Assembly: GCF_004135205.1 (NCBI RefSeq)
Contig: NZ_CP035490.1
Location: 6,727,001 to 6,791,000, forward strand
DNA length: 64,000 bases
Direction of reading: 5' to 3'
Source of the DNA: Hahella sp. KA22
GTDB lineage: Bacteria; Pseudomonadota; Gammaproteobacteria; Pseudomonadales; Oleiphilaceae
Shown: one piece after another, positions 1 through 28,758 of the stretch
Layout of the letters: every line of letters begins with the position of its first letter
How positions within the stretch are numbered: position 1 is the first letter of the stretch
Position numbers and translations under genes: made by a program
Notes under the pieces: model-generated
The model's database searches: none
Told to the model about the DNA's origin: nothing
What the model saw: the letters and a program-made list of their open reading frames with translations, nothing else

Positions 1-1
1 T

Positions 2-1621: not shown

Positions 1622-1635
1622 AAGAGCATCCCCCT

Positions 1636-2622
1636 ATGAGCAAGCAAACTTCCCCGACAGCATTTAGCTTTGGCGCGCCCGAGGCCGTGTTAGACACGAC
1701 GCTGACCTCTTACCTGGGCGTGTTTCTGAATCCCCATGGCGACTATTACGCGCCGCCGGTCAGTCTCACCGGGCTGGCCAAACTGCTACGCGCCAACGCC
1801 CATCACGGGACTATTCCCTACTTTAAGCGCAACATGCTGCGCAAGTTTTACGTGCCGTCGCCCGTGCTCAGCGCCACCGATCTGGAGAGCGCCGGCTTCG
1901 ATTACCTGGTGTTTGGCATGTGCTACTTTCAGAAGCTCTTTAACCGCCTGGGTCAGATCGTCCGCCTGCAACACATTCCCGCGTTGAACATGCGGCGCAT
2001 GAAAGCGCCGGATCAGTTCTGTTTGCTTCAGCCTAACCTGATGGACCCGTTAGCATTTCGTCCAGGGGAAATCATTCAGTTAAAAGAGTACGACGTGAAT
2101 CAGCAGATCTATGGCGTCCCGCAATACCTGGGCGGCCTGCAATCCGTCTTGCTGAACGAAAGCGCAACGCTATTTAGGCGCAAGTACTACAACAACGGCG
2201 CGCACATGGGCTTTATCTTCTACACCGCCGATGCCCAGCTGGACCCCGAAGACGAACAATCTCTGAAGGAACAAATCCGCGCCAGCAAGGGCGTGGGCAA
2301 TTTTAGAAGCCTTTACATCAACATACCCGGCGGCAAACCCGACTCGGTGAAAATCATTCCCGTGGGCGACATCACCACCAAGGACGAATTCGAGCGGGTC
2401 AAGAATCTAAGCCGTAACGATGTATTAAGCATGTGGCGCATTCAGCCGGCGCTGGCCGGCATCATGCCGGAAAACACAGGAGGTTTTGGGGATATCGAAA
2501 AGATCAGCCGCGTTTACTACGAAAACGAAGTGGTCCCCATGCAGCATGTGTTTTTAAAATTGAATGACGAGCTACCTGGTCAAAAACAGATTCGCTTTAC
2601 GGAGCTGCCTAGCCAACCATAG
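1636..2622 (+). CDS. Phage portal protein (P2 gpQ/PBSX family)
   Basis: Forms the dodecameric ring at the capsid vertex through which DNA enters and exits. The 328-residue length and the pattern FGAPEAVL at the start, PVSLTGLAKLLRANAHHG, the long conserved centre (YGVPQYLGGLQSVLLNESATLFRRKYY is the family signature stretch, seen at about residues 156-182) and GGFGDIEK near the end are typical of gpQ-type portals. It follows the terminase directly on the same strand. In P2 itself the two genes diverge, so here the packaging genes are arranged differently. The gene looks intact. Confidence 0.93.
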   Translation: MSKQTSPTAFSFGAPEAVLDTTLTSYLGVFLNPHGDYYAPPVSLTGLAKLLRANAHHGTIPYFKRNMLRKFYVPSPVLSATDLESAGFDYLVFGMCYFQKLFNRLGQIVRLQHIPALNMRRMKAPDQFCLLQPNLMDPLAFRPGEIIQLKEYDVNQQIYGVPQYLGGLQSVLLNESATLFRRKYYNNGAHMGFIFYTADAQLDPEDEQSLKEQIRASKGVGNFRSLYINIPGGKPDSVKIIPVGDITTKDEFERVKNLSRNDVLSMWRIQPALAGIMPENTGGFGDIEKISRVYYENEVVPMQHVFLKLNDELPGQKQIRFTELPSQP

Positions 2623-2628
2623 CCAAGA

Positions 2629-2655
2629 GGTAATATCTACAATAAAAAGGGTAAT
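2629..2655. repeat. Two GGTAATAT motifs in front of the ogr-like gene
   Basis: GGTAATAT occurs at 2629-2636 and again at 2650-2657, exactly 21 bp (two helical turns) apart, between the portal stop and the zinc-finger gene. The same GGTAAG/T word is massed at 8636-8967 and is present in the cox/repressor control region at 11992. This suggests a site bound by a phage protein, possibly the repressor, Cox or the primase; the binder is not known. Confidence 0.4.
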
Positions 2656-2694
2656 ATGTTAGAATTCTGGCTTACAACGAAGGAATGAAAACTG

Positions 2695-2949
2695 ATGCAA
2701 GTTAACTGTAGCGAGTGCGGAAACAAAGCCATTATTACCAGTCGCCAAGTCTTGGACCCTAAGCTGGCGAATCTATATTGCGTCTGCAAAAACGCAGAGT
2801 GTGGACACAGCTTTGTCATGAATCTGGCGTTTAGCCATACGCTCAGCCCGTCGTCGTTTCAGGCTAAAAAAATGATGGTGGAAATGTTAAGGGGAATGGG
2901 TCAGGCCGAGCAGTTAGAACTGCTGGCCCAGGCTCGAAGCAACGCATGA
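2695..2949 (+). CDS. ogr: Ogr/Delta-family zinc-finger late-gene activator
   Basis: Small phage transcription activator that recruits RNA polymerase to late promoters in P2-like phages. The 84-residue protein begins MQVNCSECGNKA and has CxxC at residues 5-8 followed by C-x4-C (CKNAECGHSF, about residues 31-36), the four-cysteine zinc site of Ogr/Delta proteins. Length matches the 72-81 residue family closely. A Shine-Dalgarno sequence (AAGGAA) lies 8 bp before the ATG. It sits after the portal gene and before the accessory block. Confidence 0.9.
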   Translation: MQVNCSECGNKAIITSRQVLDPKLANLYCVCKNAECGHSFVMNLAFSHTLSPSSFQAKKMMVEMLRGMGQAEQLELLAQARSNA

Positions 2950-2951
2950 TA

Positions 2952-3155
2952 TTATTTCAAATCCTTATTAATAATCCCCTGCGCCTCCTCTATTCTTTCT
3001 CTCACGTGCTCAATCACTAGGCTGTAACCCTGCTGACATTGCTGGCTCATTTCAGGCCATGATCTATCTGTCATTGAAAATTGCACGAATTCTAAAATCT
3101 GCTGGCTCTCCGCCAGTCGCTCCAAAGCGTCAATTTTTTTCATCCTGGACGTCAA
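2952..3155 (-). CDS. Small helical protein, candidate SOS-controlled phage gene
   Basis: A 67-residue, charged, mostly helical protein with no family I recognise. A TTG at 3155 has a GGAG sequence 8 bp upstream and is the likely start; an ATG at 3143 is the alternative. It converges on the ogr-like gene. Its upstream region carries a perfect LexA-type box at 3274-3289, about 120 bp before the start. In phage 186 the LexA-controlled tum antirepressor frees the prophage from repression, so a comparable induction role is an inference from context only; no sequence similarity to Tum is claimed. Confidence 0.55.
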   Translation of the reverse strand: MTSRMKKIDALERLAESQQILEFVQFSMTDRSWPEMSQQCQQGYSLVIEHVRERIEEAQGIINKDLK

Positions 3156-3273
3156 TACTTAAACTCCGATTTACTTCCTACGCTGCGTCTACAGTCCAGC
3201 ATCTCCGCCCTTACAATACCCCGACAACTTTGGGGGCTTATAAATCAGATCTCACCTTAGCTTTCACGGATAA

Positions 3274-3289
3274 CTGTATGTAAATACAG
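3274..3289. promoter_or_regulatory. Perfect LexA (SOS) box
   Basis: CTGTATGTAAATACAG fits the gammaproteobacterial consensus CTGT-N8-ACAG exactly, with a fully symmetric 6-bp dyad around GTAA and an AT-rich centre. It lies between the leftward gene ending at 2952 and the rightward gene starting at 3588, so it could control either. The leftward start is nearer (about 120 bp) and a TTATAA -10-like element lies between. Confidence 0.65.
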
Positions 3290-3587
3290 AGTGTATATAT
3301 GACACTTTTTTGACGATAAAGTGTGTAACAAAAGTATAGTTTTTTTTGTATTTTTGTGAACCCTGCCACATAAATCCAGTAAAGACCGTACTTGCAGGAG
3401 GGTAGCTCTTTATTGGTTATTAATGTGATGTTTGCCAATTATGCGCAGCGCGCTCTATCTGTGATATTAAAAGTTACGTTAAGCATGAAGGGCATTATGC
3501 GTTAATGTCGCTTATATCCCTGCATGTATACTAATTTTATTCTTGCATTTTAATTAATGAAAAGAAGGAAAGCAGAGGAAGCGAATA
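3290..3587. other. AT-rich leader region before the 3588 gene
   Basis: No supported gene. It contains a 7-bp inverted repeat (ACACTTT/AAAGTGT, 3302-3324) just after the LexA box, a run of T residues near 3340, and a purine-rich ribosome binding site (AGAGGAAG) ahead of the ATG at 3588. Base composition is clearly more AT-rich than the packaging genes, marking the left border of the accessory block. Confidence 0.5.
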
Positions 3588-4364
3588 ATGATACCAGAAC
3601 CAAATACTATAAGTTCAGCAATAGTTAACTCTACTCCTGTCGGCGTAAACCCAAATCTTGGCGAGATTGCAGCTACTATAGTGCAAGATCTATATGTCTG
3701 CACCAGCCCTGTTAATTCTACTTTGTCCAATACTTCGGCAAAGATAAATGATCTTGCAAAGAAATTTCAAGATACATTAATGACATATCAATCAGAAGAC
3801 ATTGGAATGGATTTTGATGTAGCCATAGCGTTACTACGAACATGGGTTTTTGTAGCGGAAAACTCTTGTAAAAATACATTCCCTAAATCTGGCATAACTC
3901 TTCGATTTGATGTTAACCCTAAGAGAAATAGATATGGTAATCGTGAGAGAATTCTACCTGTTAATGGAGTGGGCTATTACGAATATCAAGAACAAGGGGT
4001 AAGTGCATTCACTAAAAGAATGTTCATTTGTCCAAATAACCGCAACGATATCTGGATTACCGACCACGGAACTCATAATGGTGGATATACTGGACCCCAA
4101 ACTACTCGTTTTATGAGAGGAGAGATTCCGAGCGTAGATGGAAGATATAGAGCAGTATGGTATAAGTGGAATCAAGGGGAGTGGTATAAATGGAGATTAA
4201 CTCCCGGTGTTATACAACCAGGGAGCTTGGGAGACAAGGCAGCCTATGATCGTATGGATATTTTAGGAAGAAATTGTGATCTTGGGAGAAAGATTGTACA
4301 AATAGCATTGGCAAATCCGAATGAGCCATCGAAAAATATAATTAATTGGGCTCGACAATTGTAA
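3588..4364 (+). CDS. Unrecognised accessory protein, prophage cargo
   Basis: A 258-residue soluble-looking protein with no signal peptide or membrane segment and no family I recognise. The first ~70 residues are low-complexity and Asn/Ser/Thr-rich. The C-terminal two thirds hold dense aromatic and basic patches, such as FDVNPKRNRYGNRE (about 110-123), ITDHGTHNGGYTGP (about 158-171) and WYKWNQGEWYKWRL (about 192-205). The AT-rich codon use differs sharply from the GC-rich terminase and portal genes, indicating separate acquisition. It stands alone between the LexA-box region and a downstream hairpin. Its position, between portal/ogr and replication genes of a P2-like phage, is a known site for host-benefit or anti-phage genes; function is otherwise unknown. 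Confidence 0.75.
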   Translation: MIPEPNTISSAIVNSTPVGVNPNLGEIAATIVQDLYVCTSPVNSTLSNTSAKINDLAKKFQDTLMTYQSEDIGMDFDVAIALLRTWVFVAENSCKNTFPKSGITLRFDVNPKRNRYGNRERILPVNGVGYYEYQEQGVSAFTKRMFICPNNRNDIWITDHGTHNGGYTGPQTTRFMRGEIPSVDGRYRAVWYKWNQGEWYKWRLTPGVIQPGSLGDKAAYDRMDILGRNCDLGRKIVQIALANPNEPSKNIINWARQL

Positions 4365-4430
4365 TCTACGGAAGCCAATACATTTTGAAAACTTCCCTTT
4401 TCTCAGAAAGCTGAAATATGAATTCCATTA

Positions 4431-4470
4431 AGTAGAGAGCCTGCAATTCTAATATTTCAGGCTCTCTACT
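4431..4470 (+). terminator. Perfect 13-bp stem hairpin after the 3588 gene
   Basis: AGTAGAGAGCCTG at 4431-4443 is perfectly complementary to 4458-4470, with a 14-nt AT-rich loop. No T run follows on either side, so it may terminate weakly or act as an mRNA 3' end or attenuator. The rest of 4365-4799 contains no supported gene; it holds one copy of the 38-bp imperfect direct repeat at 4643-4680. Confidence 0.5.
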
Positions 4471-4642
4471 AGTTAGCTAAAGTAAGGTTAAGTATAACTG
4501 CCAGTATTAGGATACCTTGTTTCTTATCAATCCTTATTAGTCGCTCTCCCCTATCTCTAAAGCATTACGTCGTCCCGCCCTCCACCTAATTACTTCAGCT
4601 AAGTGATTGCATAACCATCATGTAGGAAAATAAGTTGCTAAT

Positions 4643-4680
4643 GCTTTCTTCTTTACCTTCCACCAGGTAGAATCACACTT
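4643..4680. repeat. Imperfect 38-bp direct repeat, copy 1
   Basis: Matches 7851-7888 in the same orientation at 31 of 38 positions, including an exact shared 13-mer GTAGAATCACACT at 4667-4679. The two copies bracket a 3.2-kb stretch containing the unrecognised membrane genes and the exonuclease gene. Confidence 0.6.
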
Positions 4681-4799
4681 TGGCCACCATATAAGTGAGC
4701 AATATTAAAACCTCATTTATTTAGTCTAGCCGTGGGAAGCCTTTCCTCTGAACTAGATATTAGCCGAAAGTCCACATCAACAAACATCTACTTTATGTA

Positions 4800-5669
4800 T
4801 TGAGAAAAATGGAAAAAATTTATTTAATTGCCTCCATAGCCCTTGTGATGATTGTAAGTTATAAAACAAAAAACACTCACGCTCGGCTTGTAGTCGGAGC
4901 ATTAATGGCAACTTATTACTTATCGTTTTTTCCATATATAGATATCTATGCGTCGTTAGCCGAGGAGTCTACTGCGTTTATTCAGGCTGTATTTTTTGTT
5001 CCATTTATTATTATCTGCCTGATATGTTTAACAAAGCGGGTCACAAATGCCAACTTCATACTGAGTGGTATTTGTATTCCAGTTTTCGTTTTATCTTACG
5101 CAATAACATCAGAGTTTGATGTTAAAATAAAAAACATGATTGCAATACAATCAGGCCTGTTCGATAAAGCACTGCCATTTCCCAAAAGCATAGAACAAGA
5201 AGGTGATAAAAAAGAGTTTTATTTCCCTGAAATGGGGGTGTCTTTAGTGGCTAGCATAAAATGGAACAAACAATATTTACAGTCACCATATTTCCCGTAT
5301 ATTAGCTATTCAGAAAATGAGAATGAAATTGCTGAGATAAGACCAAAGTGTTTCAGCCCACCTACCATTTCCATACCAGAATCAATAATAGACTTATCGC
5401 AAAGAAAAGAGATTATAGATATTGAGTGCTATACCAACAATGAAATTTATTCATGCCTGATACTGGAAAATAAAAGTTCACAGTATTTCCAAAAATGGCA
5501 TTGGATAGCTATCAGCAAGTCTAACTCACGGTCAGCTCAAATTGATATTATACAGTATGAGGACGGTGCGTTTATTGAAAGGGAAATTAAAAGCTTGCTC
5601 TCATCTATAAAACTGGGGCAGCCGAATAGTGAAAGCTGCCCACTGATAGTTCCATCTGAATGGCTATAA
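4800..5669 (+). CDS. Unrecognised membrane protein, prophage cargo
   Basis: A 289-residue protein (TTG at 4800, or ATG at 4809) with four hydrophobic segments in the first ~110 residues: about 8-22, 31-50, 65-82 and 90-105. A roughly 170-residue polar domain rich in Lys, Glu, Ile and Tyr follows. No catalytic motif is apparent. The AT-rich coding and isolated position between convergent neighbours suggest an accessory (moron) gene. A membrane anchor with a large extramembrane domain would suit superinfection exclusion or surface modification, but this is only a guess from topology. It converges on the 5674 gene with a 4-bp gap. Confidence 0.75.
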   Translation: MRKMEKIYLIASIALVMIVSYKTKNTHARLVVGALMATYYLSFFPYIDIYASLAEESTAFIQAVFFVPFIIICLICLTKRVTNANFILSGICIPVFVLSYAITSEFDVKIKNMIAIQSGLFDKALPFPKSIEQEGDKKEFYFPEMGVSLVASIKWNKQYLQSPYFPYISYSENENEIAEIRPKCFSPPTISIPESIIDLSQRKEIIDIECYTNNEIYSCLILENKSSQYFQKWHWIAISKSNSRSAQIDIIQYEDGAFIEREIKSLLSSIKLGQPNSESCPLIVPSEWL

Positions 5670-5673
5670 AATA

Positions 5674-6030
5674 TTACTCTGAAGAAGGCTCAATCAGGCT
5701 GCGCATTTCTTCACAACTCCAGCTTTCATAGCCAGTGCTATCCGCTGCCATTTTAAAGAGCATGTACCTTTGTCCTTCAACCGCTGAAGAAGTAGCCATC
5801 CATGCTTCATATGCATTATCGTCAGCAGTTAGCTTCTGATCCAGTTTCTTAGTGATATACGCCACTCTTTCCTCGTGGGATAAAGCATCCACGTCACCTT
5901 CTTTAGACAGCTCTTTAAATGATGAGCAAACTATATCAAAGTCATTTTCATCCACCTTTGAAAGAAAGGTGAATGCGGTTGCTGAGACCACGAAAAAAAC
6001 AACAATCAACCCAATAAATTTAGCTTTCAT
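5674..6030 (-). CDS. Small membrane-anchored or exported protein
   Basis: A 118-residue protein starting MKAKFIGLIVVFFVVSATAF, an N-terminal hydrophobic segment that could be an uncleaved anchor or a signal peptide without an obvious lipobox. The remaining ~95 residues are acidic and helical, with two Cys (about 35 and 107). It belongs to a leftward cluster with the 6059 and 6648 genes, separated by 28 and 16 bp, which look co-transcribed. No family recognised. Confidence 0.65.
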   Translation of the reverse strand: MKAKFIGLIVVFFVVSATAFTFLSKVDENDFDIVCSSFKELSKEGDVDALSHEERVAYITKKLDQKLTADDNAYEAWMATSSAVEGQRYMLFKMAADSTGYESWSCEEMRSLIEPSSE

Positions 6031-6058
6031 TATTTAGCCTACAATCCCTATATAGTTA

Positions 6059-6631
6059 CTAAAATTTTCGTACGGTGATATTCGATATAGCTAATCGTCC
6101 ATTCGAATCCATTCTAAATGGATGCGCAGGACGTATAATTTGAACGGCTACTTTCGGTTTATAGTCATGAACAGGATTGTTATTTTTATCCACTATATAA
6201 ACCCATAAACCATTAGGATGTTGCCAGCTAGTACCACCTAAGCTTGCGATAGTCATTGCGTTAATAAATGGGGGTTTTGATGCGTAGTGATAACAAATTT
6301 TTATCCCTTCGTTGTAAGGGGCTCCTTCAGCAGCTTTTACAGCTCTAAGCTTGATGTTCATGTCATCATCAACAACTGATTTAAAGATGCCAACTACTGT
6401 AGAAGCTACCGCCGCAGCCCCCCCGAAAAGACCCGTTGCGTATATCCCTAAGTCTCCCTTGTCTGGCATATTCTTATTTACAGCATAGTCTGTGGCCCAT
6501 ACTGCTGGAGTAATAAATTTGCCTATTGTGCTGTAACCACTTTTTTCTAAGCCCATAGACGCGATGGTTCCGCCTACGGATTTTATAGTTGAGTTGTGGT
6601 CAATAACTGCTTGCTGTACGCCGCTCATCAT
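6059..6631 (-). CDS. Unrecognised protein with glycine-rich membrane segment
   Basis: A 190-residue protein. Residues about 60-95 contain a small-residue-rich hydrophobic stretch (YATGLFGGAAAVASTVVGIF) of the kind that inserts in membranes or packs as a glycine zipper. The C-terminal ~90 residues look like a compact beta domain (GLWVYIVDKNNNPVHDYKP). The arrangement resembles pore-forming or exclusion proteins in general layout only; no homology is asserted. It lies in the middle of the leftward three-gene cluster, with a Shine-Dalgarno sequence (GAGG) just upstream of the ATG pair. Confidence 0.65.
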   Translation of the reverse strand: MMSGVQQAVIDHNSTIKSVGGTIASMGLEKSGYSTIGKFITPAVWATDYAVNKNMPDKGDLGIYATGLFGGAAAVASTVVGIFKSVVDDDMNIKLRAVKAAEGAPYNEGIKICYHYASKPPFINAMTIASLGGTSWQHPNGLWVYIVDKNNNPVHDYKPKVAVQIIRPAHPFRMDSNGRLAISNITVRKF

Positions 6632-6647
6632 ATCCTCTCAATTTGGT

Positions 6648-6890
6648 TTAAATAAGAATTTTGGTCTTAATAAACTCAACAAGAATGGCTACAACCTTCG
6701 CTATGTTTTCAGTTAGTTTTTTCTTTATCTCATGTAAGGCTAAAAAGCGAAACATTGTTACTTCTAAGCAAAGAAATAAGCCAAAGAAAAATGAAACCTG
6801 AAGATAGAAGTTGAGTTTCTTTTGAGGTGAAAAATCCCTATTTATAGATGTTGCTTCGAATGAAGATGTGGATAAATTGTAATCAACCAC
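6648..6890 (-). CDS. Small membrane protein
   Basis: An 80-residue protein with a central hydrophobic segment (LQVSFFFGLFLCLEVTMFRFLAL, about residues 31-53) and a second amphipathic/hydrophobic segment at the C-terminus (VVAILVEFIKTKILI). First gene of the leftward cluster 6890-5674. AT-rich, no family recognised. It might form a membrane complex with the two downstream gene products. Confidence 0.5.
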   Translation of the reverse strand: MVDYNLSTSSFEATSINRDFSPQKKLNFYLQVSFFFGLFLCLEVTMFRFLALHEIKKKLTENIAKVVAILVEFIKTKILI

Positions 6891-7010
6891 GAGAAAGAAA
6901 TAAATCGGCCATATGGTATACGGAGCTTGTGCGTAGATAGTATGTATGCATTAGAAACACTTCCTTAAACTTTTATATTGCCGTAAAGCAATGCGGCCTT
7001 CACCGTAACC

Positions 7011-7032
7011 CCTGGCTACTGAGGTAGCCAGG
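7011..7032. terminator. Hairpin downstream of the exonuclease gene
   Basis: CCTGGCTAC (7011-7019) pairs perfectly with GTAGCCAGG (7024-7032) around a TGAG tetraloop, 10 bp beyond the stop of the leftward exonuclease gene. There is no T run, so it may be a weak intrinsic terminator. Confidence 0.45.
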
Positions 7033-7041
7033 AATCTGTAT

Positions 7042-7611
7042 TCACGATAATTTTGCTAATAATTTCGAATATACGCTTCCAATCACTTCAACGGTAGTAA
7101 AGCAGTCCGCCACTGCCCGGTGGGCTCCATACACTTCTATGCCCATTTGCTTGGCAGCCTTGGCTAAGCTCTGCCTTCTATAGCCGCCTCGTTTTGCGTC
7201 GGGCTCTTTCCGATACCTTGAGTATGCATCCATGGCGCATTGCCAGTCTGCTTCTATCATCGGTAATCCGTATGCGGCGCAGGTCTGCATTAATAGCCGA
7301 TTGTCAAAGCTCGCATTGTAGGCCACCACGGTTTTTCCGCTGATCACTCGCCTAAGCGCAAGGTATACATCGGGAAAGTTTGGCTTGCTCGCCAAGCTAT
7401 CATTGGTTATGCCGTGAATGTCTGTGGCTTCGTCCGGCACCGGATTAAGCGGGCGCACCAGCTGATCAAACAGCACTTTCCCGCGCATATCCATGACGCT
7501 GATTTCTATCACTTCCGCCTGGTCGTCCAGGCCTGTGGTTTCCGTATCCAGCACCACCACTTGGGGGCTGTATATCCATCCTTTTAAGAGTTCCAATAAT
7601 TCGTCATTCAC
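7042..7611 (-). CDS. DnaQ-like 3'-5' exonuclease (DEDDh)
   Basis: A 189-residue exonuclease of the DNA polymerase III epsilon superfamily. It has Exo I DTETTG (D22, E24), Exo II YNASFDN (D103) and Exo III with H164 and D169 in GAHRAVADC, so all DEDDh residues are present. It likely hydrolyses single-stranded DNA or RNA 3' ends. Similar stand-alone exonucleases accompany phage and plasmid replication genes. It is AT-balanced and closer in composition to the phage early genes than to the cargo cluster on its left, suggesting it belongs to the leftward early region. Confidence 0.9.
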   Translation of the reverse strand: MNDELLELLKGWIYSPQVVVLDTETTGLDDQAEVIEISVMDMRGKVLFDQLVRPLNPVPDEATDIHGITNDSLASKPNFPDVYLALRRVISGKTVVAYNASFDNRLLMQTCAAYGLPMIEADWQCAMDAYSRYRKEPDAKRGGYRRQSLAKAAKQMGIEVYGAHRAVADCFTTVEVIGSVYSKLLAKLS

Positions 7612-7630
7612 TTTTACTTTGTCCTAATTA

Positions 7631-7659
7631 GCAGAGGGCGAACGGTTGCGGCCCTCTGC
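7631..7659 (-). terminator. Hairpin between small phage gene and exonuclease gene
   Basis: GCAGAGGGC (7631-7639) pairs perfectly with GCCCTCTGC (7651-7659) over an 11-nt loop. It lies 17 bp past the stop of the leftward 7676 gene and upstream of the exonuclease start, so it may reduce read-through. Confidence 0.5.
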
Positions 7660-7675
7660 TTGTGCTTCCATTTAG

Positions 7676-7843
7676 TTAATTCATATCGTCAATATTAACT
7701 GGCGTAACGTCGTTGCTTTCACTTGTCGTCTGCGTTGCTCTTTTGTTCCTGTCTCTTAACCTGCGGTGGTACTCGCCGCCTTTCACTAGATGCTTTAGCC
7801 AGGCGATGACGTGGCCGTTGTGTTTCGGGTGTTTGCGTTCCAT
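7676..7843 (-). CDS. Small basic phage protein
   Basis: A 55-residue protein if begun at the ATG at 7843 (GTG at 7864 is possible, giving 62). It starts MERKHPKHNGHVIAWLKHL, is strongly basic with many His and Arg, and ends in a polar acidic tail. No family recognised. It is part of the leftward early operon of the prophage, just after the 45-residue ORF, and the second 38-bp direct repeat copy overlaps its upstream end. Confidence 0.45.
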   Translation of the reverse strand: MERKHPKHNGHVIAWLKHLVKGGEYHRRLRDRNKRATQTTSESNDVTPVNIDDMN

Positions 7844-7850
7844 TGCCGGC

Positions 7851-7888
7851 GCTTTCCTCTGCACGTTTCACCACGTAGAATCACACTC
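7851..7888. repeat. Imperfect 38-bp direct repeat, copy 2
   Basis: Second copy of the repeat at 4643-4680 (31 of 38 identical, exact 13-mer at 7875-7887). It overlaps the 3' end of the short ORF at 7881-8018 and the alternative start of the 7676 gene. Confidence 0.6.
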
Positions 7889-8018
7889 GGGCTAACGTAT
7901 GAGCGCCTAGCAGAGCCGATTTATCGGCCTTGTGTGGATTTGCTTCCAGGTAAATGCTTGTGCGGCTGACAGCGTCCCGGTCAAGTTCTGCTGTCAGTGC
8001 TCCTTTAAAGTCGTTCAT
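7881..8018 (-). CDS. 45-residue ORF translationally coupled to upstream gene
   Basis: The ATG at 8018 overlaps the TGA of the preceding leftward gene as ATGA, the usual coupling arrangement. The peptide begins MNDFKGALTAELDRD and is a mixed-charge helical sequence with no recognised family. The AAAGGAG ahead of its codon 7 is inside the gene and is not its ribosome site. Coupling and continuous spacing in the operon support it; its small size keeps confidence moderate. Confidence 0.5.
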   Translation of the reverse strand: MNDFKGALTAELDRDAVSRTSIYLEANPHKADKSALLGAHTLARV

Positions 8019-8569
8019 ATCAGCAACCCCTCTATAACCGACTCGTAATAGCTATCCAGTACGCCCCCGGCCAGATCACTTTGACTACATACGCCATGGC
8101 TGGCGACAAGTAATGTTCCCCACACAGGCTTTAACAGGCTGGCCATGGTCGCCAGTAAAATCTGGTCGCGGCGCTTGGCGTTAATCAAAGCTGCATTCAA
8201 CGCCGCCGGGGATCTCAAACCGATTTGATCCAGACGCCTAACGCCCTTGTGGCCTTCTTTCACGGCTTGGATAGCGAAAGCATGCTCTCCCAGCATTTCG
8301 ACGGCTTGGCTCCAGTAGAAGAAAAAAGCCGGGGTCGCCTGGGGGAGTTCGAACGGCGCTCTGTAGTGACGCTTGCCCAGCGTTTCGAGCACGGCGAGCC
8401 GGCCTTTTGTTTTCGCTTCATGCACCCAACAGCGCAGCGCCTGCCGCGAATTAAGGGTTTTCGACATGCCCGGCGCAATCGCCAGGCCGTTGCAGATCCC
8501 CGCCGCCCAGGTTTCCATTGGGCATAAGGGGGCCTCTAAAGTGGGCGCAATCGCCCCTTTATTCATCAT
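8015..8569 (-). CDS. Unrecognised phage early protein
   Basis: A 184-residue protein. The start at 8569 (MMNKGAIAP) is chosen because AAAGGAG lies 9 bp upstream; the longer frame extends into the inverted-repeat region and is not needed. The protein is soluble, Ala- and Leu-rich, with a basic centre (LGKRHYRAPFELP) and aromatic FFFYWSQ. No conserved catalytic motif stands out. It is the first gene of the small leftward operon that continues through the 45-residue ORF and the 7676 gene, and it lies just across the repeat region from the primase gene. Confidence 0.65.
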   Translation of the reverse strand: MMNKGAIAPTLEAPLCPMETWAAGICNGLAIAPGMSKTLNSRQALRCWVHEAKTKGRLAVLETLGKRHYRAPFELPQATPAFFFYWSQAVEMLGEHAFAIQAVKEGHKGVRRLDQIGLRSPAALNAALINAKRRDQILLATMASLLKPVWGTLLVASHGVCSQSDLAGGVLDSYYESVIEGLLI

Positions 8570-8635
8570 GGTGTTATCTCCTTTACATTGATTCCGGGTC
8601 AGCCCCGGGCCTGAATCTCCCCCCGATAATTGGGT

Positions 8636-8967
8636 GGGGGGTGTCGGGATTTGGTAATTTAGGTAAGACGATCCCGAAAAAAGCACTTATCTTTATGTTT
8701 TTAAATGGTTTTTTAGTCGCTCCAAAAAAGTAAGAAAAAGGTAATATCAAGGTAAGACAAAAAGTAAGACCCTTGATTTATAACGTTTTTTCCATTTTTA
8801 AAAAGGTAATGGGGAAGTAATTTTTTAGAGTTTCAAAAGGTAAGAAACTTACCTCAAAATTACCTAAATATTACCTTTTTAGTAAGTTTGTAAGACATTG
8901 ATTTAAAATAGAAAAAACTCGATTTTTAAACCCGTCTTACCAAAATTACCAAATCCCGACACCCCCC
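8636..8967. repeat. 35-bp inverted repeat enclosing a GGTAAG/T array; candidate phage origin
   Basis: The arms 8636-8670 and 8933-8967 are complementary at 34 of 35 positions. Inside and within the arms GGTAA(G/T) occurs six times on the plus strand (8653, 8662, 8740, 8751, 8805, 8839) and five times on the minus strand (8848, 8859, 8870, 8936, 8945). Close pairs are 9 or 11 bp apart, so the sites are roughly in phase with the helix. Further AGTAAG near-copies lie between. The interior is AT-rich. The region sits between the 8015 gene and the 3' end of the primase-helicase gene. P4-type phages carry iteron regions (ori, crr) recognised by the primase protein, so a replication origin is the leading idea; a repressor operator array is the alternative. 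Confidence 0.7.
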
Positions 8968-9026
8968 TGAAAAAACGGGCTTCCTCTGCCTAACGCGCAC
9001 ATAGGCGCACGTATTTACACGTTTAC

Positions 9027-11681
9027 TTAGCGCTTAAATATCCAGCAATGAATCGTTTTATTGAGACTCCTGGAATAAACCTTCCCGGTTTCAATGAACT
9101 TGTAGCGCTGGCTGTTGGGCAGCAGTTTCTTTAAGGCCTTGAGGTCCAGTGACTTCTGGCCGTGAGTGCGACACACCTCGTCAAAATGGTTCAGGTTAAC
9201 GGCGATGTTTCCTGTCCCTACGGCGTGGTTTAGAACTTCCACCAGGGCGCTGGATGCAAACGCGTTAGGGTCCGGCTGCGCGTTCAGATACTCAAAAGAC
9301 TCCCAGAACTCCGCCACCGCCGGATGGTCGTCCGCCAAGCGCTCTTGGCGGCTGAGAGCACGTCCATACAGATAATCGCTTAAGCCACTGAAAGCGCTTT
9401 CATTAAGGGTTGGGAAGATATGCCGCAACGCTTTTGCAGCCGCCATTACCTGGGCATGGTTTTTCACCAAACGCAGCAGGCTGGTTTTAATTTCCCCGCG
9501 GCTGGTGAAGGCTTCCTCATAGCGATTAAACTCGTTGAAGAACGTGTTTAAGATCTGCGTTTCATTCTCCAGCGCCTTACGCAGAAAACCCGCCATCTGG
9601 TCGACGCTTTGTCGTTCAAACCACTGCGCCAGTTTTCGCGTGCCTGGCGAGTGGTGTTCGGTCGTACAGTGACAATGGACAATCCGTTGTAGCAGGGCTT
9701 CCGATCCGTCCACCTCGGCATTTTGCGCAAACACCAGGGAACCCAAAAAGAGCGGTTCTTCCGTGTCGTTGCCGCGCTTGGCGACGCCCAACGTCCCGAC
9801 CGCGCGCCCGTTAAAGAAGGGTTTAAACTCGTCGAAATCAAACTGCTTCTTTTTCACGTCCGGCTCGTCGCCCCGGTCGGATTCGATCAACACCAGCGGC
9901 ATATTAGAGCTTTGCGTGAATGCGCGCCGGCGTCCGGCGGCCGTCGCCTTCATGGCGTCGAATCCTTCGTAGTCGTCGCGCCCCATGAGCTTCCACAGAA
10001 ACTCAATCAGCGTGGATTTACCGGCGCCAGGATCGCCCGTCAGTTCAAGAAAGGGGAAGCTCTTGTGCTTCGCCCGGATCTGCTGAACGAACAACGAGCC
10101 CAGCCAGAAGGCCAGCGCCGTTAAACCTTGCCAGGAAAAGGTCGTTATAAAGTTATCGATCCACTCCGGGTTAAACTCCCCAGGCTGAATCCGAAAGCCT
10201 TTAAAGCTGGTTTTGATGCCGCCCCGGTCCAGTTCAAAATACCCCTCCGCATTTAGTTCCAGTTCTTTGCCTTTGCAGAAAGCAAAGGTCTGGTAGACGT
10301 ATGCCTGGCTGTCGGCGTGGTAACCCACATAAGGAATGGATTGAATCTCTTTGACCTTACGGTTTAACCACAGCTCATGCAGCATGGCCATGTCTTTAGA
10401 GCTACCGGAAAACGCGCCATAACCCTTGGTGATCATCGCCTTATGAAAGCTCGATGGCGTGTCGATGTTGCTCCCGTCAAATGGGATTAACGCATCCGCG
10501 TTATTGCTGCTGTACTGCACCCGAAACACATAAAACTTTTCGTCCAGGATGTCGTCCCGCTCCGCATAAAGCAGTTCCGGCACAAAGTTACTGATCGGGA
10601 ACGCCGTACAGTGCTGGCTAAAGGAGTCATAGCCTTTACCTAGCGTCAATGCTGCGCCTTCCAGTGCTTCGGACAGCTTATGTAAGTCCACTGAAACCGA
10701 ATACAGCCGGTTATCAAAGTCGATAACGAAGTGAGAATGGCTCTTCCACAAATAGTACGCGTACGCCTTCCACATCACGCTTTGCGCCGTGAACATTTTC
10801 CCCCGGTATTGCGCTTCCTGCAGGAACGTATCGTTGATCCTATCCAGGCGGTAAAGGTCGTCCCAGTCCTTGCTGGTCCCGGTTAGAGATATCTCGACTT
10901 TTTCACCCGCCATCTGGAGCTTGGTGTAATGAGACTTCATGCTCTTGCGGCCCGCTGCGTCGTCATCCAGCGCCAGCACCCAAGTGATTTTTTTCCCTAA
11001 GTAGGGTTTTATCGCCTCGCTTGGGTAATAGCCGGCGGCCAGGATCGCCACCGCCTTACGCTCAGAGAAGTGCAGCGCCAGGGCGTGAAAGATCCCCTCC
11101 ACGATATAAACGCGATCACCTTGTTTAAGCTCCTGGGTCGGCGGCATCCACCATTTGCCCTTGACCGGGTCAACTAACACCCATCGCCCATTGACGTTAT
11201 GGCGTTTGCCGCTGAAGTTGATGCGTTGTCCGTCGTCTTTCTGTTTGTCGATCAGCCGTTCCCAATAAAGGGTCCGGTCGCTGTTCAGATAGAAGCGGAC
11301 GGTGTTGCACCACTCCTGAGACTTGGGCAGCTTATAGCTGCCTTGCTCATACCAGCCCACCATTTCACTAAGGGGGAAACGGCGATTGTGCGCCAGGTAG
11401 GCGTCCGCCGTGGCGTTCGGGTTTTCCTCCGTAGTGGGGAAGCGTTCGGAGTAGTTATTGAAAAGTTCCGGGTATATCTCCCGGGTTGTCTCGCTGTAAC
11501 CGCAATGCTTCAAGCGGTTACAGCTGACGCGCCAGGGCTCTTTCATACTGACGAAAAGCTCTTTCTTTCCGCAGTTCGGGCATTTGCCCTGCTGTAGGTA
11601 TTCCCCTACGCGCTTGAAAGCGAACTGGCCATCGCTGGCCAGCGCCTCCGCTATTTCTTTTCTGTTATCGAAATGTAGCAT
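9027..11681 (-). CDS. Phage primase-helicase (zinc-Toprim-AAA+, P4 alpha-like layout)
   Basis: About 884 residues from the ATG at 11681, which lies 12 bp after the cox stop (a longer frame to 11723 overlaps cox). A zinc site (CPNC at about 34-37, then two Cys in CNRLKHCGY near 54-60) is followed by a Toprim-type domain (VYIVEG near 190, VLALDDDAAGRKS near 235). A helicase domain follows with Walker A GDPGAGKST (about 548-556) and downstream FNGRAVGTLG and LVFAQNAEVDGSEAL elements. The combination primes and unwinds phage DNA for replication. It replaces the rolling-circle protein A of classical P2, so this phage probably replicates by a theta-type, P4-like mode. Confidence 0.9.
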   Translation of the reverse strand: MLHFDNRKEIAEALASDGQFAFKRVGEYLQQGKCPNCGKKELFVSMKEPWRVSCNRLKHCGYSETTREIYPELFNNYSERFPTTEENPNATADAYLAHNRRFPLSEMVGWYEQGSYKLPKSQEWCNTVRFYLNSDRTLYWERLIDKQKDDGQRINFSGKRHNVNGRWVLVDPVKGKWWMPPTQELKQGDRVYIVEGIFHALALHFSERKAVAILAAGYYPSEAIKPYLGKKITWVLALDDDAAGRKSMKSHYTKLQMAGEKVEISLTGTSKDWDDLYRLDRINDTFLQEAQYRGKMFTAQSVMWKAYAYYLWKSHSHFVIDFDNRLYSVSVDLHKLSEALEGAALTLGKGYDSFSQHCTAFPISNFVPELLYAERDDILDEKFYVFRVQYSSNNADALIPFDGSNIDTPSSFHKAMITKGYGAFSGSSKDMAMLHELWLNRKVKEIQSIPYVGYHADSQAYVYQTFAFCKGKELELNAEGYFELDRGGIKTSFKGFRIQPGEFNPEWIDNFITTFSWQGLTALAFWLGSLFVQQIRAKHKSFPFLELTGDPGAGKSTLIEFLWKLMGRDDYEGFDAMKATAAGRRRAFTQSSNMPLVLIESDRGDEPDVKKKQFDFDEFKPFFNGRAVGTLGVAKRGNDTEEPLFLGSLVFAQNAEVDGSEALLQRIVHCHCTTEHHSPGTRKLAQWFERQSVDQMAGFLRKALENETQILNTFFNEFNRYEEAFTSRGEIKTSLLRLVKNHAQVMAAAKALRHIFPTLNESAFSGLSDYLYGRALSRQERLADDHPAVAEFWESFEYLNAQPDPNAFASSALVEVLNHAVGTGNIAVNLNHFDEVCRTHGQKSLDLKALKKLLPNSQRYKFIETGKVYSRSLNKTIHCWIFKR

Positions 11682-11692
11682 TACTTCGACTC

Positions 11693-11890
11693 TTACCTGC
11701 GCTTTCCATCTTCTTCCATGCACTCCAGCATAAGGAGCGCGACGTTAACCAATACCAAGCGGCCAATATATTTAACGGGTATATAACCACGTTCAATTTG
11801 GCCTCTTACTTGGTCCTCCCGAAGCCCTGAGCATTCCGCGAAGGCTTTTTTAGTCATTACAGGCGAGGTGATAGTTAGATTTTTTTCCAT
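11693..11890 (-). CDS. Cox-like DNA-binding protein (excisionase/early repressor)
   Basis: A 65-residue protein from the ATG at 11890, preceded by AGGAT at 8 bp; longer frames to 11974 run into the promoter. It carries a helix-turn-helix (MTKKAFAECSGLREDQVRGQIERG) followed by IPVKYIGRLVLVNVALL, the wing/beta pattern of P2 Cox and AlpA-type excisionases. In P2-like phages Cox directs excision and shuts off the repressor promoter. It is first in the leftward early operon, divergent from the repressor gene, exactly as in P2-like genomes. Confidence 0.85.
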   Translation of the reverse strand: MEKNLTITSPVMTKKAFAECSGLREDQVRGQIERGYIPVKYIGRLVLVNVALLMLECMEEDGKRR

Positions 11891-11943
11891 GAAATTACAT
11901 CCTATGTGTTTGTATAAGCCACTATGTGACCATTCAGGGTCAT

Positions 11944-11971
11944 TATTTACCCCTAAACGAATGCATGTCAA
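11944..11971 (-). promoter_or_regulatory. Candidate early promoter for cox-primase operon
   Basis: Read on the minus strand, TTGACA (11971-11966) is followed after 16 bp by TAAATA (11949-11944), ending about 55 bp before the cox ATG. The -35 is consensus and the -10 weak. It faces the repressor promoter across the operator-like dyad at 11992. Confidence 0.5.
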
Positions 11972-11991
11972 CAATTTTTTGACCTGTTATA

Positions 11992-12004
11992 GGTAATTGT
12001 TACC
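11992..12004. promoter_or_regulatory. Operator-like dyad between cox and repressor
   Basis: GGTAATTGTTACC is an inverted repeat of GGTAA around a 3-bp centre, placed in the divergent control region. Its half-site is the GGTAA word found in the 8636-8967 array, suggesting the same protein could bind both. It overlaps a plausible -35 (TTGTTA) for the rightward repressor promoter, whose -10 would be near 12020. Confidence 0.5.
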
Positions 12005-12149
12005 CATTAAATATTTTTATATGACTTAGATTCAGACCTGCATGAGCGCCAGTTAATTTTCATTTACCTTTTCTGTTGCTTTTTTTACCCCTGAAAGTGT
12101 AAAAATGTGCCGGTGTGTGCGTACAAAATTGTCGTTAAAGGAAATTAGG

Positions 12150-12470
12150 ATGAGACTTAAAGCAGGTGAGAGGCTTAAAGGGCTTCGTGAGTTGGCTGGC
12201 TTCACTCGACAAGAGTTTTCAAATATCACAAACATTGAACTTACGCGGCTAACGAACTTGGAAAAACTAAAGGCTCGCGTAGCAGAAGATGAATACGAGA
12301 AGCTCGGGCTTCTTTTCCCCGACATTATTCAATGGCTAGCGTTTGAGGGTGACATATCGCTAGAAGCCCTAAGAGTAAGTGAGAATAAGCTTTGCCGACT
12401 TCTCGCGGCCCGGTTTGAAGCGGGTCAGATTCCTGAAGGGTACTACTTCGAAGAAGTAATAAAACAGTGA
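12150..12470 (+). CDS. Phage C-type repressor
   Basis: A 106-residue protein from the ATG at 12150, preceded by AAAGGAAA; a longer frame to 12105 is unlikely. An N-terminal helix-turn-helix (MRLKAGERLKGLRELAGFTRQEFSNITNI) is followed by LTRLTNLEKLKARVAEDEYEKLGLLFP, the dimerisation pattern of small P2 C-like immunity repressors. It is divergent from cox and 39 bp upstream of the integrase gene, the standard P2 lysogeny operon layout. It would hold the early promoter silent in the lysogen. Confidence 0.8.
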   Translation: MRLKAGERLKGLRELAGFTRQEFSNITNIELTRLTNLEKLKARVAEDEYEKLGLLFPDIIQWLAFEGDISLEALRVSENKLCRLLAARFEAGQIPEGYYFEEVIKQ

Positions 12471-12509
12471 AAGACTATAAATCGATCAGCTTTATAAAGG
12501 AATAGCACA

Positions 12510-13562
12510 ATGGCAATTAAGAAGATTGCTTCAGGATGGCAAGTTGATATCCAACCAGAAGGTCGAGGCGGTAGAAGAATTAGAAAAACCTTTCCCACAA
12601 AGCGACAAGCCGAGCAATTCGATACAGAGCAAAAAGCAAAGGCAAATGCTGGCGAGTGGACTCCGCCTCTGAAGGATAAAAGGCGATTGGCCGATCTCAT
12701 AAATACCTGGTACGAGCTTCACGGATACACATTGAAGGATTGCGATAATCGTTTGCGTGTACTGAACGGCCTGTGTTCTAGATTGGGCAATCCTATTGCC
12801 AAAAACTTTACTTCCGAAGATTGGTTAAAATACCGGAAGGAACGCCTCACGCAAAAGCTAGAGAGACGGGAAAAGTTAGTTGAGCCAAATACAATTAACC
12901 ATGAACAAGCTTATCTATCAGCAGTGTTTGGACGCCTAATAAAACTCAAAAATTGGCCTTTTGATAACCCACTTAAAGGCGTATCAAAGCTCATCATTGA
13001 TGAACCAGATTTAGTTTATCTAGAAAAAGACCAGATCAAATCCCTACTGGCTGCGTTGAGCGAATCTAAAAATACTGATGTCTTAGTAATCAGCAAAATA
13101 TGTCTTTCTACAGGAGCACGCTGGGGAGAGGCAGAATCCCTAAGAGGAGAGCAAGTAAAGCAAGGCAAAATCCACTTTACAAAAACCAAGAATAGTAAGG
13201 TGCGAGCCGTTCCAATATCTGCTGAATTGGAAAGAGAGGTTTTGACAGGTCGCCCACGATTTGGCCGACTTTTTACAGGCTCATCACACCAAGCGTTCCA
13301 GCGTGCAATAGAGCGGGCTAGGATACAGCTCCCAGATGGACAAATGACGCATGTGCTGCGGCATACATTTGCAAGTCATTACATGATAAATGACGGAAAT
13401 ATTCTGAAGCTCAAAGACATCCTTGGGCATCAGACGTTAACGATGACACTGCGGTACGCAAAGCTTGCGCCGAGGCACTTGGCTGATGCTGTACATAAAA
13501 ACCCACTAGCAACGCTATACTGTCAACAAAGTGTCAACCGAGACGTGGAAAATCACGTTTGA
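12510..13562 (+). CDS. int: Tyrosine integrase (P2 Int family)
   Basis: A 350-residue site-specific recombinase. The N-terminal arm-binding domain has the SGWQVDIQPEGRGGRRIRKTF pattern of P2-like integrases. The catalytic domain carries Arg in STGARWGE (about 206), Lys in TKTKNSKVRAVP (about 229), HVLRH (about 281-285), His in LGHQT and the nucleophile Tyr in LRYAK (about 316). Preceded by AAAGGAA. It lies directly downstream of the repressor and next to the prophage end, as expected for attP placement downstream of int. Its start, length and active-site residues all look intact. Confidence 0.95.
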   Translation: MAIKKIASGWQVDIQPEGRGGRRIRKTFPTKRQAEQFDTEQKAKANAGEWTPPLKDKRRLADLINTWYELHGYTLKDCDNRLRVLNGLCSRLGNPIAKNFTSEDWLKYRKERLTQKLERREKLVEPNTINHEQAYLSAVFGRLIKLKNWPFDNPLKGVSKLIIDEPDLVYLEKDQIKSLLAALSESKNTDVLVISKICLSTGARWGEAESLRGEQVKQGKIHFTKTKNSKVRAVPISAELEREVLTGRPRFGRLFTGSSHQAFQRAIERARIQLPDGQMTHVLRHTFASHYMINDGNILKLKDILGHQTLTMTLRYAKLAPRHLADAVHKNPLATLYCQQSVNRDVENHV

Positions 13563-13631
13563 ATGTGGAATCCTCACATACAAATCAATAGCTTATGGAA
13601 AAACGAGTAACAACAAGGACCATCAAGACGG

Positions 13632-13641
13632 TCTCATAATC
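13632..13641. other. Possible attachment-core copy at prophage end
   Basis: TCTCATAATC here shares CTCATAATC with the anticodon loop of the tRNA at 13702-13710 and with the tRNA fragment at 34430-34438. It lies 70 bp past the P2-like int stop, where an attachment site is expected. The flanking bases do not look like a tRNA half, so whether it is a real core is uncertain. Confidence 0.3.
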
Positions 13642-13669
13642 AATAGGCCAGGGTGAAAAAAGTTTAAAT

Positions 13670-13746
13670 GGGCCTGTAGCTCAGTTGGTTAGAGCACCCG
13701 ACTCATAATCGGTAGGTCCTCGGTTCAAGTCCGAGCAGGCCCACCA
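13670..13746 (+). tRNA. tRNA with CAU anticodon (Ile2 or elongator Met)
   Basis: A complete 77-nt cloverleaf with encoded CCA. The acceptor stem GGGCCTG pairs fully with CAGGCCC, the T stem CTCGG/CCGAG is perfect and the anticodon CAT is at 13704-13706 in loop CTCATAA. The G-rich acceptor and the CGACTCATAATCGG anticodon arm favour the lysidine-modified tRNA-Ile2 over elongator tRNA-Met, but sequence alone cannot settle this. The outer anticodon-stem pair (27-43) is a C-U mismatch, as if 5' and 3' halves came from different copies. It is the left boundary of the second integrated element. Confidence 0.93.
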
Positions 13747-14062: not shown

Positions 14063-14422
14063 ATGACGTGGGAAATATTAGTCACAGATGAATATGAGGG
14101 CTGGTTTCTAAATCTAACTGACGCTGAACAAATTGACGTTCAAGCAATGGTTGACGTTCTGGAAATCAAAGGCCCTAACCTTGGCCGCCCTCAGGCAGAT
14201 ACGATAAAAGGCACAAAGAAGGTTAAAAACCTTAAGGAGCTGGTCATTCAGCACGCAGGAAAACCATATAGAGTTTTCTATGCCTTTGACCCCAAACGAC
14301 GCGCTGTTCTTCTATGCGGTGGTCGAAAAGATGGATCGAAAGATAAACAGTTTTACAAACAGATGGTTCCGCTAGCTGAAGCAGAGTTTGCGGATCACTT
14401 AAAAAGCGAAGGCCTCAAGTAG
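14063..14422 (+). CDS. higB: HigB/RelE-family toxin
   Basis: A 119-residue RelE-superfamily protein of the phage-derived Gp49/HigB type, predicted to cleave mRNA on the ribosome. Recognisable elements are WEILVTDEYEGWFLNL at the start, GPNLGRPQADTIKG (about 40-53), NLKELVIQHAGKPYRVFYAFDPKRRAVLLCGG (about 59-90) and a basic C-terminal helix. The toxin precedes the antitoxin, the usual higBA order, with 16 bp between them. A TTGACG/TATATT promoter lies just upstream. It probably stabilises the integrated element. Confidence 0.9.
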   Translation: MTWEILVTDEYEGWFLNLTDAEQIDVQAMVDVLEIKGPNLGRPQADTIKGTKKVKNLKELVIQHAGKPYRVFYAFDPKRRAVLLCGGRKDGSKDKQFYKQMVPLAEAEFADHLKSEGLK

Positions 14423-14438
14423 GTCTGGGAGAAATGAA

Positions 14439-14750
14439 ATGGCAAAGCCTTTAAGCGAACTGCGCAAGCAAATGAGCCCTGAAGTACAAGCAGCCGCACG
14501 AGCAAAAGCAGTTGGCATAGTTGCAGAAATGTCACTGGCAGAAACTCGTAAGCTGCGTGGTCGCAGTCAAGCAGTGGTGGCTCGCGCCTTGGGTATAGCC
14601 CAACCTAATGTTTCTCAAATTGAAAAACGCCCTGACACAATGATCAGCACACTGGCGTCTTATGTTGAAGCCTTAGGTGGAAAACTCGAAATCCATGCAA
14701 AATTTCCAGATGGGCAAGACGTGGAGATCACACAATTCAAACAAGCTTGA
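14439..14750 (+). CDS. higA: HigA-family antitoxin (XRE helix-turn-helix)
   Basis: A 103-residue antitoxin with an XRE-type DNA-binding domain: ETRKLRGRSQAVVARALGIAQPNVSQIEKRPDTMISTLASYVEALGGKLEI, about residues 32-85. An N-terminal helix (MAKPLSELRKQMSPEVQAAARAKA) is typical of antitoxins paired with Gp49-type toxins. It would neutralise the product of the preceding gene and repress their shared promoter. The helicase gene begins 26 bp after its stop. Confidence 0.9.
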   Translation: MAKPLSELRKQMSPEVQAAARAKAVGIVAEMSLAETRKLRGRSQAVVARALGIAQPNVSQIEKRPDTMISTLASYVEALGGKLEIHAKFPDGQDVEITQFKQA

Positions 14751-28720: not shown

Positions 28721-28758
28721 AGTTCGCCTTCATTCAGGCAGAGTCGAATCGCTTCCCT

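Follow-up and report, generated by a model that had tools for sequence, protein, structure and literature searches.

P2-like phages are taught as rolling-circle replicators. The Cch protein of SCCmec, which sits in a staphylococcal cassette, has to our knowledge no fused Toprim primase. In the pri-rep-ori modules of PICIs and SaPIs (SaPIbov1 Rep; Escherichia coli PICIs such as EcCICFT073) a primase goes together with an initiator, sometimes in one fused protein, and one account describes PICI origins as always comprising two iteron sets that flank an AT-rich region, with a rep-ori segment that drives plasmid replication (PMC6092414). For P4, another account describes a fusion of primase and initiating helicase, and replication genes that suffice for autonomous replication (PMC7145576). 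Here we analysed a 64,000-nucleotide stretch of the Hahella sp. KA22 genome (hereafter the window; contig NZ_CP035490.1, positions 6,727,001 to 6,791,000), in which a P2-like prophage carries a mirror-symmetric iteron array next to a primase-helicase gene. Judged by comparison with related sequences, this array is very probably a replication origin of the PICI/P4 type, bound by the phage's own primase-helicase in a full-size P2-like phage.

The array occupies positions 8636-8967 (332 bp, no strand assigned), directly 3' of the primase gene. Its two 35-bp arms, at 8636-8670 (+) and 8933-8967 (-), are complementary at 34 of 35 positions across 262 nt, and a word count gave 11 exact copies of GGTAAK. 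Six of these lie on the plus strand: the outer pair in the left arm, 9 bp apart (GGTAAT at 8653-8658 and GGTAAG at 8662-8667), then GGTAAT at 8740-8745, GGTAAG at 8751-8756, GGTAAT at 8805-8810 and GGTAAG at 8839-8844, the last being convergent with the copy at 8848. The five on the minus strand are GGTAAG at 8848-8853, GGTAAT at 8859-8864 and again at 8870-8875, and the outer pair in the right arm, GGTAAG at 8936-8941 and GGTAAT at 8945-8950. Read in reverse, the layout is +0 +9 +75 +86 +97 -107 -141 -195 -206 -284 -293. A box, TCGGGATTT, adjoins the outer iteron at 8644-8652 (+) and has its mirror copy at 8951-8959 (-).

Such a density is not expected by chance: 2000 dinucleotide-preserving shuffles of the 332 bp contained on average 1.83 GGTAA and at most 7, against the 11 observed, and the inverted-repeat score of the array was 32 compared with at most 20 in 100 shuffles. 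The array is 68% AT and the neighbouring primase gene 46%. The arms, the iteron number, their excess and the AT-richness claimed in the original prediction were thus all borne out on recount. The AT-rich DNA is spread over the linkers, and a single central AT-rich block was not seen in arrays read from bacterial genomes. Across the whole window GGTAAK occurs 60 times against a shuffle mean of 41.7, so that single copies elsewhere mean little; those at 2629 and 2650, to which significance had been attached, fall within this background. The GGTAA half-array pattern is found at this one place only in the 6.96-Mb host genome, and no RNA family was detected at 7000-13000 at E values up to 1.

The prophage around the array encodes a large terminase (23-1621; PF03237 and PF17289 by profile match), a portal protein (1636-2622; PF04860, likewise), Ogr (2695-2949), Cox (11693-11974), the repressor C (12105-12470) and an integrase (12510-13562), with tRNA-Met at 13670. 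Having its own large terminase and portal genes, it is not a satellite in the sense of an element without head and tail genes of its own. It aligns, with gaps, to IMG/VR 637000128_000005 over about 29 kb, at 90-94% identity in six stretches longer than 1.9 kb and 80% in one stretch of 194 bp, and Hahella sp. HN01 is 95.7% identical to the window over 8510-11683. All 11 GGTAAK are kept in these two sister prophages, the former with one iteron copy more than the window, and in the arms a single base differs, between two iterons, in 637000128_000005 only. Both sister prophages have the same longer variant of the array as the window.

The adjacent gene (9027-11672, minus strand) encodes an 881-aa primase-helicase, the proposed initiator, identified by a profile match to phrog_1139, by its Toprim domain and by an AlphaFold model; its open frame extends up to 11723, from a GTG. 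The full-length model (pLDDT 88) found its best fold matches in SCCmec Cch (5dgk, E 8e-15) and SaPIbov1 Rep (8tch, E 1e-12) by Foldseek, both loose over the full length (rmsd 7.5-8.4), and further matches included DnaG-type primases. As modelled, the protein would combine a Toprim primase with an initiator half similar to Cch of SCCmec and Rep of SaPIbov1. When the C-terminal 188 residues were modelled alone (pLDDT 94), a helical bundle was followed by elements in winged-helix-like order; on our reading of the model this part reads as a winged helix, and its best matches were again Cch and SaPIbov1 Rep, weakly (E 0.025-0.09), the P4 origin-binding domain not being among the fold matches listed. 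The predicted winged-helix domain spans residues 781-881 (9030-9332, minus strand), with a helix at 844-853 and wing strands at about 858-880, and we propose that it reads the iterons.

Compared with P4, the protein shares with alpha the fused Toprim primase-helicase plan. The likeness in sequence is confined to the Toprim half: alpha matches phrog_1139 only there (alpha residues 31-344), and hhalign aligned the window's primase to alpha over residues of about 157-311 only (E 1e-6). Calling the primase P4-like, as had been done, therefore fits its Toprim half and not its initiator half, which resembles SaPIbov1 Rep and SCCmec Cch. The P4 crr, like the array in the window, lies directly 3' of its gene and has iterons of both orientations, some of them 9 bp apart; P4 differs in having two iteron regions (crr and ori1) and 120-bp direct repeats where there is one array here, and in its GGTGAACA-like iteron. 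The resemblance to PICIs and SaPIs is broader. Their origin is likewise directly 3' of the gene (here the array at 8636-8967 and the minus-strand gene at 9027-11672, an arrangement that does not hold in the cos-linked group described below), their two iteron sets and AT-rich region recall the two mirror half-arrays at 68% AT, and the modelled initiator half has a SaPIbov1 Rep-like AAA+ fold with a predicted C-terminal DNA-binding domain. It differs from them in that the array belongs to full-size P2-like phages and not to satellites, is a single mirror structure of about 270-310 bp with strict spacing, and may sit by cos, far from the gene. Cch of SCCmec is the best fold match of the modelled initiator half (5dgk). 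With P2 and 186 the prophage shares structural genes of the same kind, as a member of the same phage family; the difference lies in gpA, which was absent from the array contigs tested (0/50), while the P2 nick site is inside gene A.

We asked which named phages share the array. A nucleotide search of its surroundings against 50,697 phage records returned only five Pseudomonas phage records, which matched in the iterons, and a search with the primase protein matched 21 records, corresponding to 17 distinct named ones (near copies among them being four citexvirus-type and three phi3-like), all of which were scanned for arrays. A clear array was present in 13 of the 17; the original prediction had it that same-primase relatives lacking the array would speak against an origin, and for the most part they have it. 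Dense mirror GGTAA arrays occur in Dobby, Sirocco, D14A, OQ658368, Smp131 and Halomonas phage 4908. A word-agnostic scan found dense single arrays of other words in the remainder, namely GGAACA in phi3, BIBS67 and phita81A/2, TGGAAG in JFK, CTGACA in PfPro, TGTGA in ESSI2 and GTAAC in 2F_1, and more distant primases are accompanied by the same layout with other words, for example GGAAC, GGAAG, TCACA, TGTCA and GTTAC. The Microcystis phage was borderline (-8.0, with a 42-bp inverted repeat), and no array was found in two fragments of 10-12 kb and in Bacillus phage ZY1, whose record seems to be without the segment on the att side that bears the array in its Halomonas relative.

The best scan scores (log10) ranged from -9.1 to -19.1 for the 13 named phages and reached -10.8 for the window, compared with -7.7 as the best value in 80 Markov simulations of eight genomes. 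In P4, taken as positive control, the annotated crr and ori1 ranked first and second (-8.3 and -7.1). Scores near -8 are by themselves no proof, because among the control phages (P2 -8.4, 186 -7.7, HP1 -5.3) P2 comes close to P4 crr. The position of the array varies. It is directly 3' of the primase gene in the window and the phi3-type phages, abutting the gene in phi3, JFK and BIBS67, and lies kilobases away in six phages (the four citexvirus-type records, Smp131 and Halomonas phage 4908), so the array's place beside the primase gene, correctly noted for the window, is no rule. We rejected adjacency to the gene as proof of an origin, relatives holding the array elsewhere. In Smp131 the primase gene (L011:25406-28091) is annotated in a frame that ends early, and the record seems to hold a frameshift because the protein search matched the primase in two pieces. 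The accessible text of the paper on the Smp131 genome mentions the primase a single time and no array of this kind (PMC3931495).

The geometry of these arrays hardly varies. A GGTAA half-array pattern, consisting of four left-half sites, matched at least 120 viral stretches; among the 120 listed, 115 contained nine or more GGTAA within 330 bp, and 110 had a mirror-bounded array of nine or more sites that spanned 250-300 bp. In bacterial genomes the pattern occurred in at least 117 stretches, largely of Pseudomonas, Stutzerimonas, Stenotrophomonas, Xanthomonas and Dyella. Of the bacterial matches listed, 121 were read, 96 with eight or more sites and 25 with fewer, many of the latter probably being due to chance. 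From the viral and bacterial matches listed we assembled 189 distinct arrays that have nine sites or more and are bounded on the right. In this set the outer sites were 268-272 bp apart in 157 arrays, 1098 of the 1374 neighbour distances up to 25 bp were 9-12 bp, and the most frequent number of sites per half was six (left half 71/189, right half 76/189), the right half giving the fairer count because the search pattern fixes the left. The layout of 2F_1, with its different word, is -0 -9 +62 -76 -86 -140 +149 -165 +172 +183 +194 +259 +268. Outside the outer iterons, a TCGGAAA-like box at positions -9 to -1 carried 0.5-1.6 bits per position in 374 arms of 187 GGTAA arrays among the matches listed. 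It is visible beside other iteron words in ESSI2, L144, L146, L170 and L172, and was not seen in phi3, JFK, PfPro, 2F_1 and L149.

The array also keeps company with one protein family. We searched for three families in 50 array contigs, taken mostly for length from the viral matches listed, and found phrog_1139 in 46 of them (44 with a single near full-length match, one in two pieces and one cut by the contig end). Of the four without it, two are fragments of 15-17 kb; a third has an atypical array, and the array of the fourth, a 30.5-kb contig, is typical. The rolling-circle protein gpA (PF05840) was found in none of the 50 array contigs and in none of 37 primase contigs. Conversely, none of 50 gpA contigs had phrog_1139 or the GGTAA pattern, the only word sought there; these contigs are 97-100% relatives of P2 gpA and carry hardly more weight than a single case. 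Starting from the primase, we scanned 80 loci with at most 10 kb of flank; by our count 24 of them had a 5-mer cluster that scored -8 or better, and in 19 cases it lay no more than about 220 bp from the 3' end of the primase gene. Ten of the other 56 primase contigs were scanned, two of them over the first 40 kb only: four had clear GGTAA arrays elsewhere, two were borderline (about -9) and four had none, so that the array is usual with this primase and may not be universal.

Taken together, the fixed geometry, the co-occurrence with phrog_1139, the absence of gpA from the contigs tested and an iteron word that seems to follow the initiator half argue for the origin reading. The proposal of an origin recognised by the adjacent primase, in the fashion of P4 and with another iteron, thereby gains support from comparison (46 of 50 contigs, the gpA contigs and the other words), adjacency apart. 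Under the origin reading, the P2-like prophage would have replaced the rolling-circle start, in which gpA nicks the DNA, by a primase-helicase that loads itself. Each GGTAAK would be bound by the winged helix at the C-terminus of the primase, and about six sites per half would load one ring, placing two rings head to head on the half-arrays. The AT-rich DNA might then melt, the AAA+ motors move outward in both directions, and the Toprim half prime synthesis by the host polymerase, resulting in theta-type replication. The word-independent CGGAAA-like end boxes could be contacted by a host factor or by some invariant portion of the initiator.

Phages that share their head and tail genes offer a way of asking which protein recognises the word. 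JFK and phi3 are nearly identical in capsid (100%), large terminase (99.4%), portal (98.5%) and small terminase (90%), yet their iteron words differ, which disfavours terminase as the reader. Their early genes have diverged (primase 57%, integrase 60%, Cox 84%, small early genes 56-72% identical); because the contrast is not limited to the primase and extends across the early region as a whole, the word may go with a different early gene. We also compared word similarity with primase similarity over 59 primase-array pairs. After correction for residues 1-700, the partial correlation with the winged-helix region was 0.42, a value that none of 500 permutations attained; for the AAA+ region it was 0.43, again with 0/500 permutations as high, and for residues 1-170 and the Toprim region it was -0.25 and -0.24, respectively. 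Word similarity thus follows the AAA+ region no less closely than the winged helix, and the pairs are not independent. A first run on 61 rows (L261 having been dropped beforehand as partial) gave 0.26 for the winged helix against 0.24 for the rest; Smp131 (frameshift) and L263 (wrong frame) were dropped after that result, which left the 59 rows and 0.42 against 0.10. One of four identity bins (0.5-0.6) was reversed, with winged-helix identity of 0.47 for pairs with the same word and 0.52 for pairs with different words.

The strongest rival holds that the array is a packaging element, namely a terminase-binding region of cos akin to an extended cosB; it draws its strength from six phages in which a cos-like 19-mer stands at a constant distance from the array. 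Of 14 records scanned, these six (Dobby, Sirocco, D14A, OQ658368, Halomonas phage 4908 and Smp131; our loci L007, L010, L011, L016, L017 and L018) have a P2-type cos-like 19-mer at 180-196 bp from the array, and the order of the two with respect to the portal gene is constant; the Microcystis phage has, within 80 bp of its array, two tandem copies of a weaker match (three mismatches to the degenerate consensus). P2 and 186, however, have that cos without a dense array beside it in our scan, and no such 19-mer turned up next to the array in the window, phi3, JFK, BIBS67, ESSI2, PfPro and 2F_1. In phi3, JFK and BIBS67 it is instead the primase gene that borders the array, and in the latter two a candidate cos, itself a deduction from sequence, lies by int about 4.8 kb from the array; the candidate cos of PfPro would be about 0.8 kb from the array if the genome is circular. 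The word differs, moreover, between JFK and phi3 despite 99% and 90% identity of their large and small terminases. We therefore regard a packaging role as improbable, and it may be that origin and packaging start are kept together as a cassette in the six cos-linked phages. Two incidental features belong here. The tandem cos-like copies of the Microcystis phage, 19 bp each, are at L013:12270-12307, and a common GGCGGGAGGGGGATAAG(A/T)G stretch occurs by int or at the record end (L003:2343, L005:11056, L012:32682), which is possibly the cos of phi3-type phages.

It is slightly more improbable still that the array is a regulatory or excision site for Cox, the repressor, an antirepressor or another early protein, which would silence or time the early genes. 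Such a role could draw on the 84% identity of Cox between JFK and phi3, on the existence, in two array phages, of antirepressors fused to a primase-type winged helix, and on a local GGTAA excess between cox and C in the window. There, five GGTAA lie at 11947-12089 between the cox and repressor genes; five copies in this region of 231 bp were reached in 4 of 5000 Markov simulations, and these five in 150 bp are the most copies found outside the main arrays of 13 genomes. No second dense cluster of the word was detected in those 13 genomes, the window's prophage being scanned over 1-13700 only. The excess, on the other hand, is not common to the sister prophages: it was not clearly present in the two sisters or in eight other phages, and the suggestion of one binder common to replication and the cox/repressor region is not upheld. 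Cox phrog_575 was detected in one of the 50 array contigs (the model is small and may be insensitive), and the array sits 3' of the primase gene or by cos, and not at a common promoter. The least probable reading makes the array a site, distinct from the origin, that controls partition, incompatibility or copy number; iteron arrays in plasmids serve these functions too. Among the named records that are annotated (15), a small gene labelled partition protein ATPase occurs in phi3 and BIBS67 and a gene with a ParB domain in D14A, but the other 12 name no partition gene (many of their genes being hypothetical), and no second array was found to act as origin.

If the array is indeed an origin, a large branch of P2-like phages, spanning several genera, appears to begin replication through a PICI/P4-type initiator that acts at a mirror origin of strict spacing, and whole phages of the helper type would have something close to the PICI/P4-type start. 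The PICI/P4 type itself is known; what would be new is its presence in whole P2-like phages, with a frozen geometry and drifting words. In the literature searched, which left most subscription journals and preprints outside and was in part accessible only in excerpts, a mirror array in P2-like phages is not described. Many natural arrays differ in word and agree in geometry, which makes them convenient material for studying the DNA code of the initiator and the loading of double hexamers. It is conceivable, though we would sooner bet against it, that these phages form a large class of temperate phages with a rigid double-hexamer origin of six sites per mirror half and word-independent CGGAAA boxes, in which the iteron letters have repeatedly changed along with the initiator while the protein geometry stayed frozen, and in which some antirepressors have borrowed the winged helix and may control the origin.

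Several observations lie beside these questions. Two array phages encode an extra fusion protein, L273 (G040:C1:28000-29500, match 28730-28987, plus strand) and L272 (G049:C1:2400-3300, match 2740-2994, minus strand), in which an antirepressor-type part (Rha PF09669, E 5e-30, or anti-repressor Ant, phrog_5817) precedes a primase-like C-terminus (phrog_20645, phrog_1139 positions 788-890); such a protein could compete for the iterons and control replication. The host genome contains one full phrog_1139 primase and two partial matches. Outside the window, a 580-aa protein at 6809592-6811334 of the host genome matches the helicase half of phrog_1139 only; no iteron array was present near it within the 40 kb scanned, and our impression is that it sits in an island with apparent type I restriction genes. 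Finally, just past tRNA-Met, two adjacent small genes at 14063-14750, Gp49-like (PF05973) and HTH (PF13744), look like a toxin-antitoxin pair.
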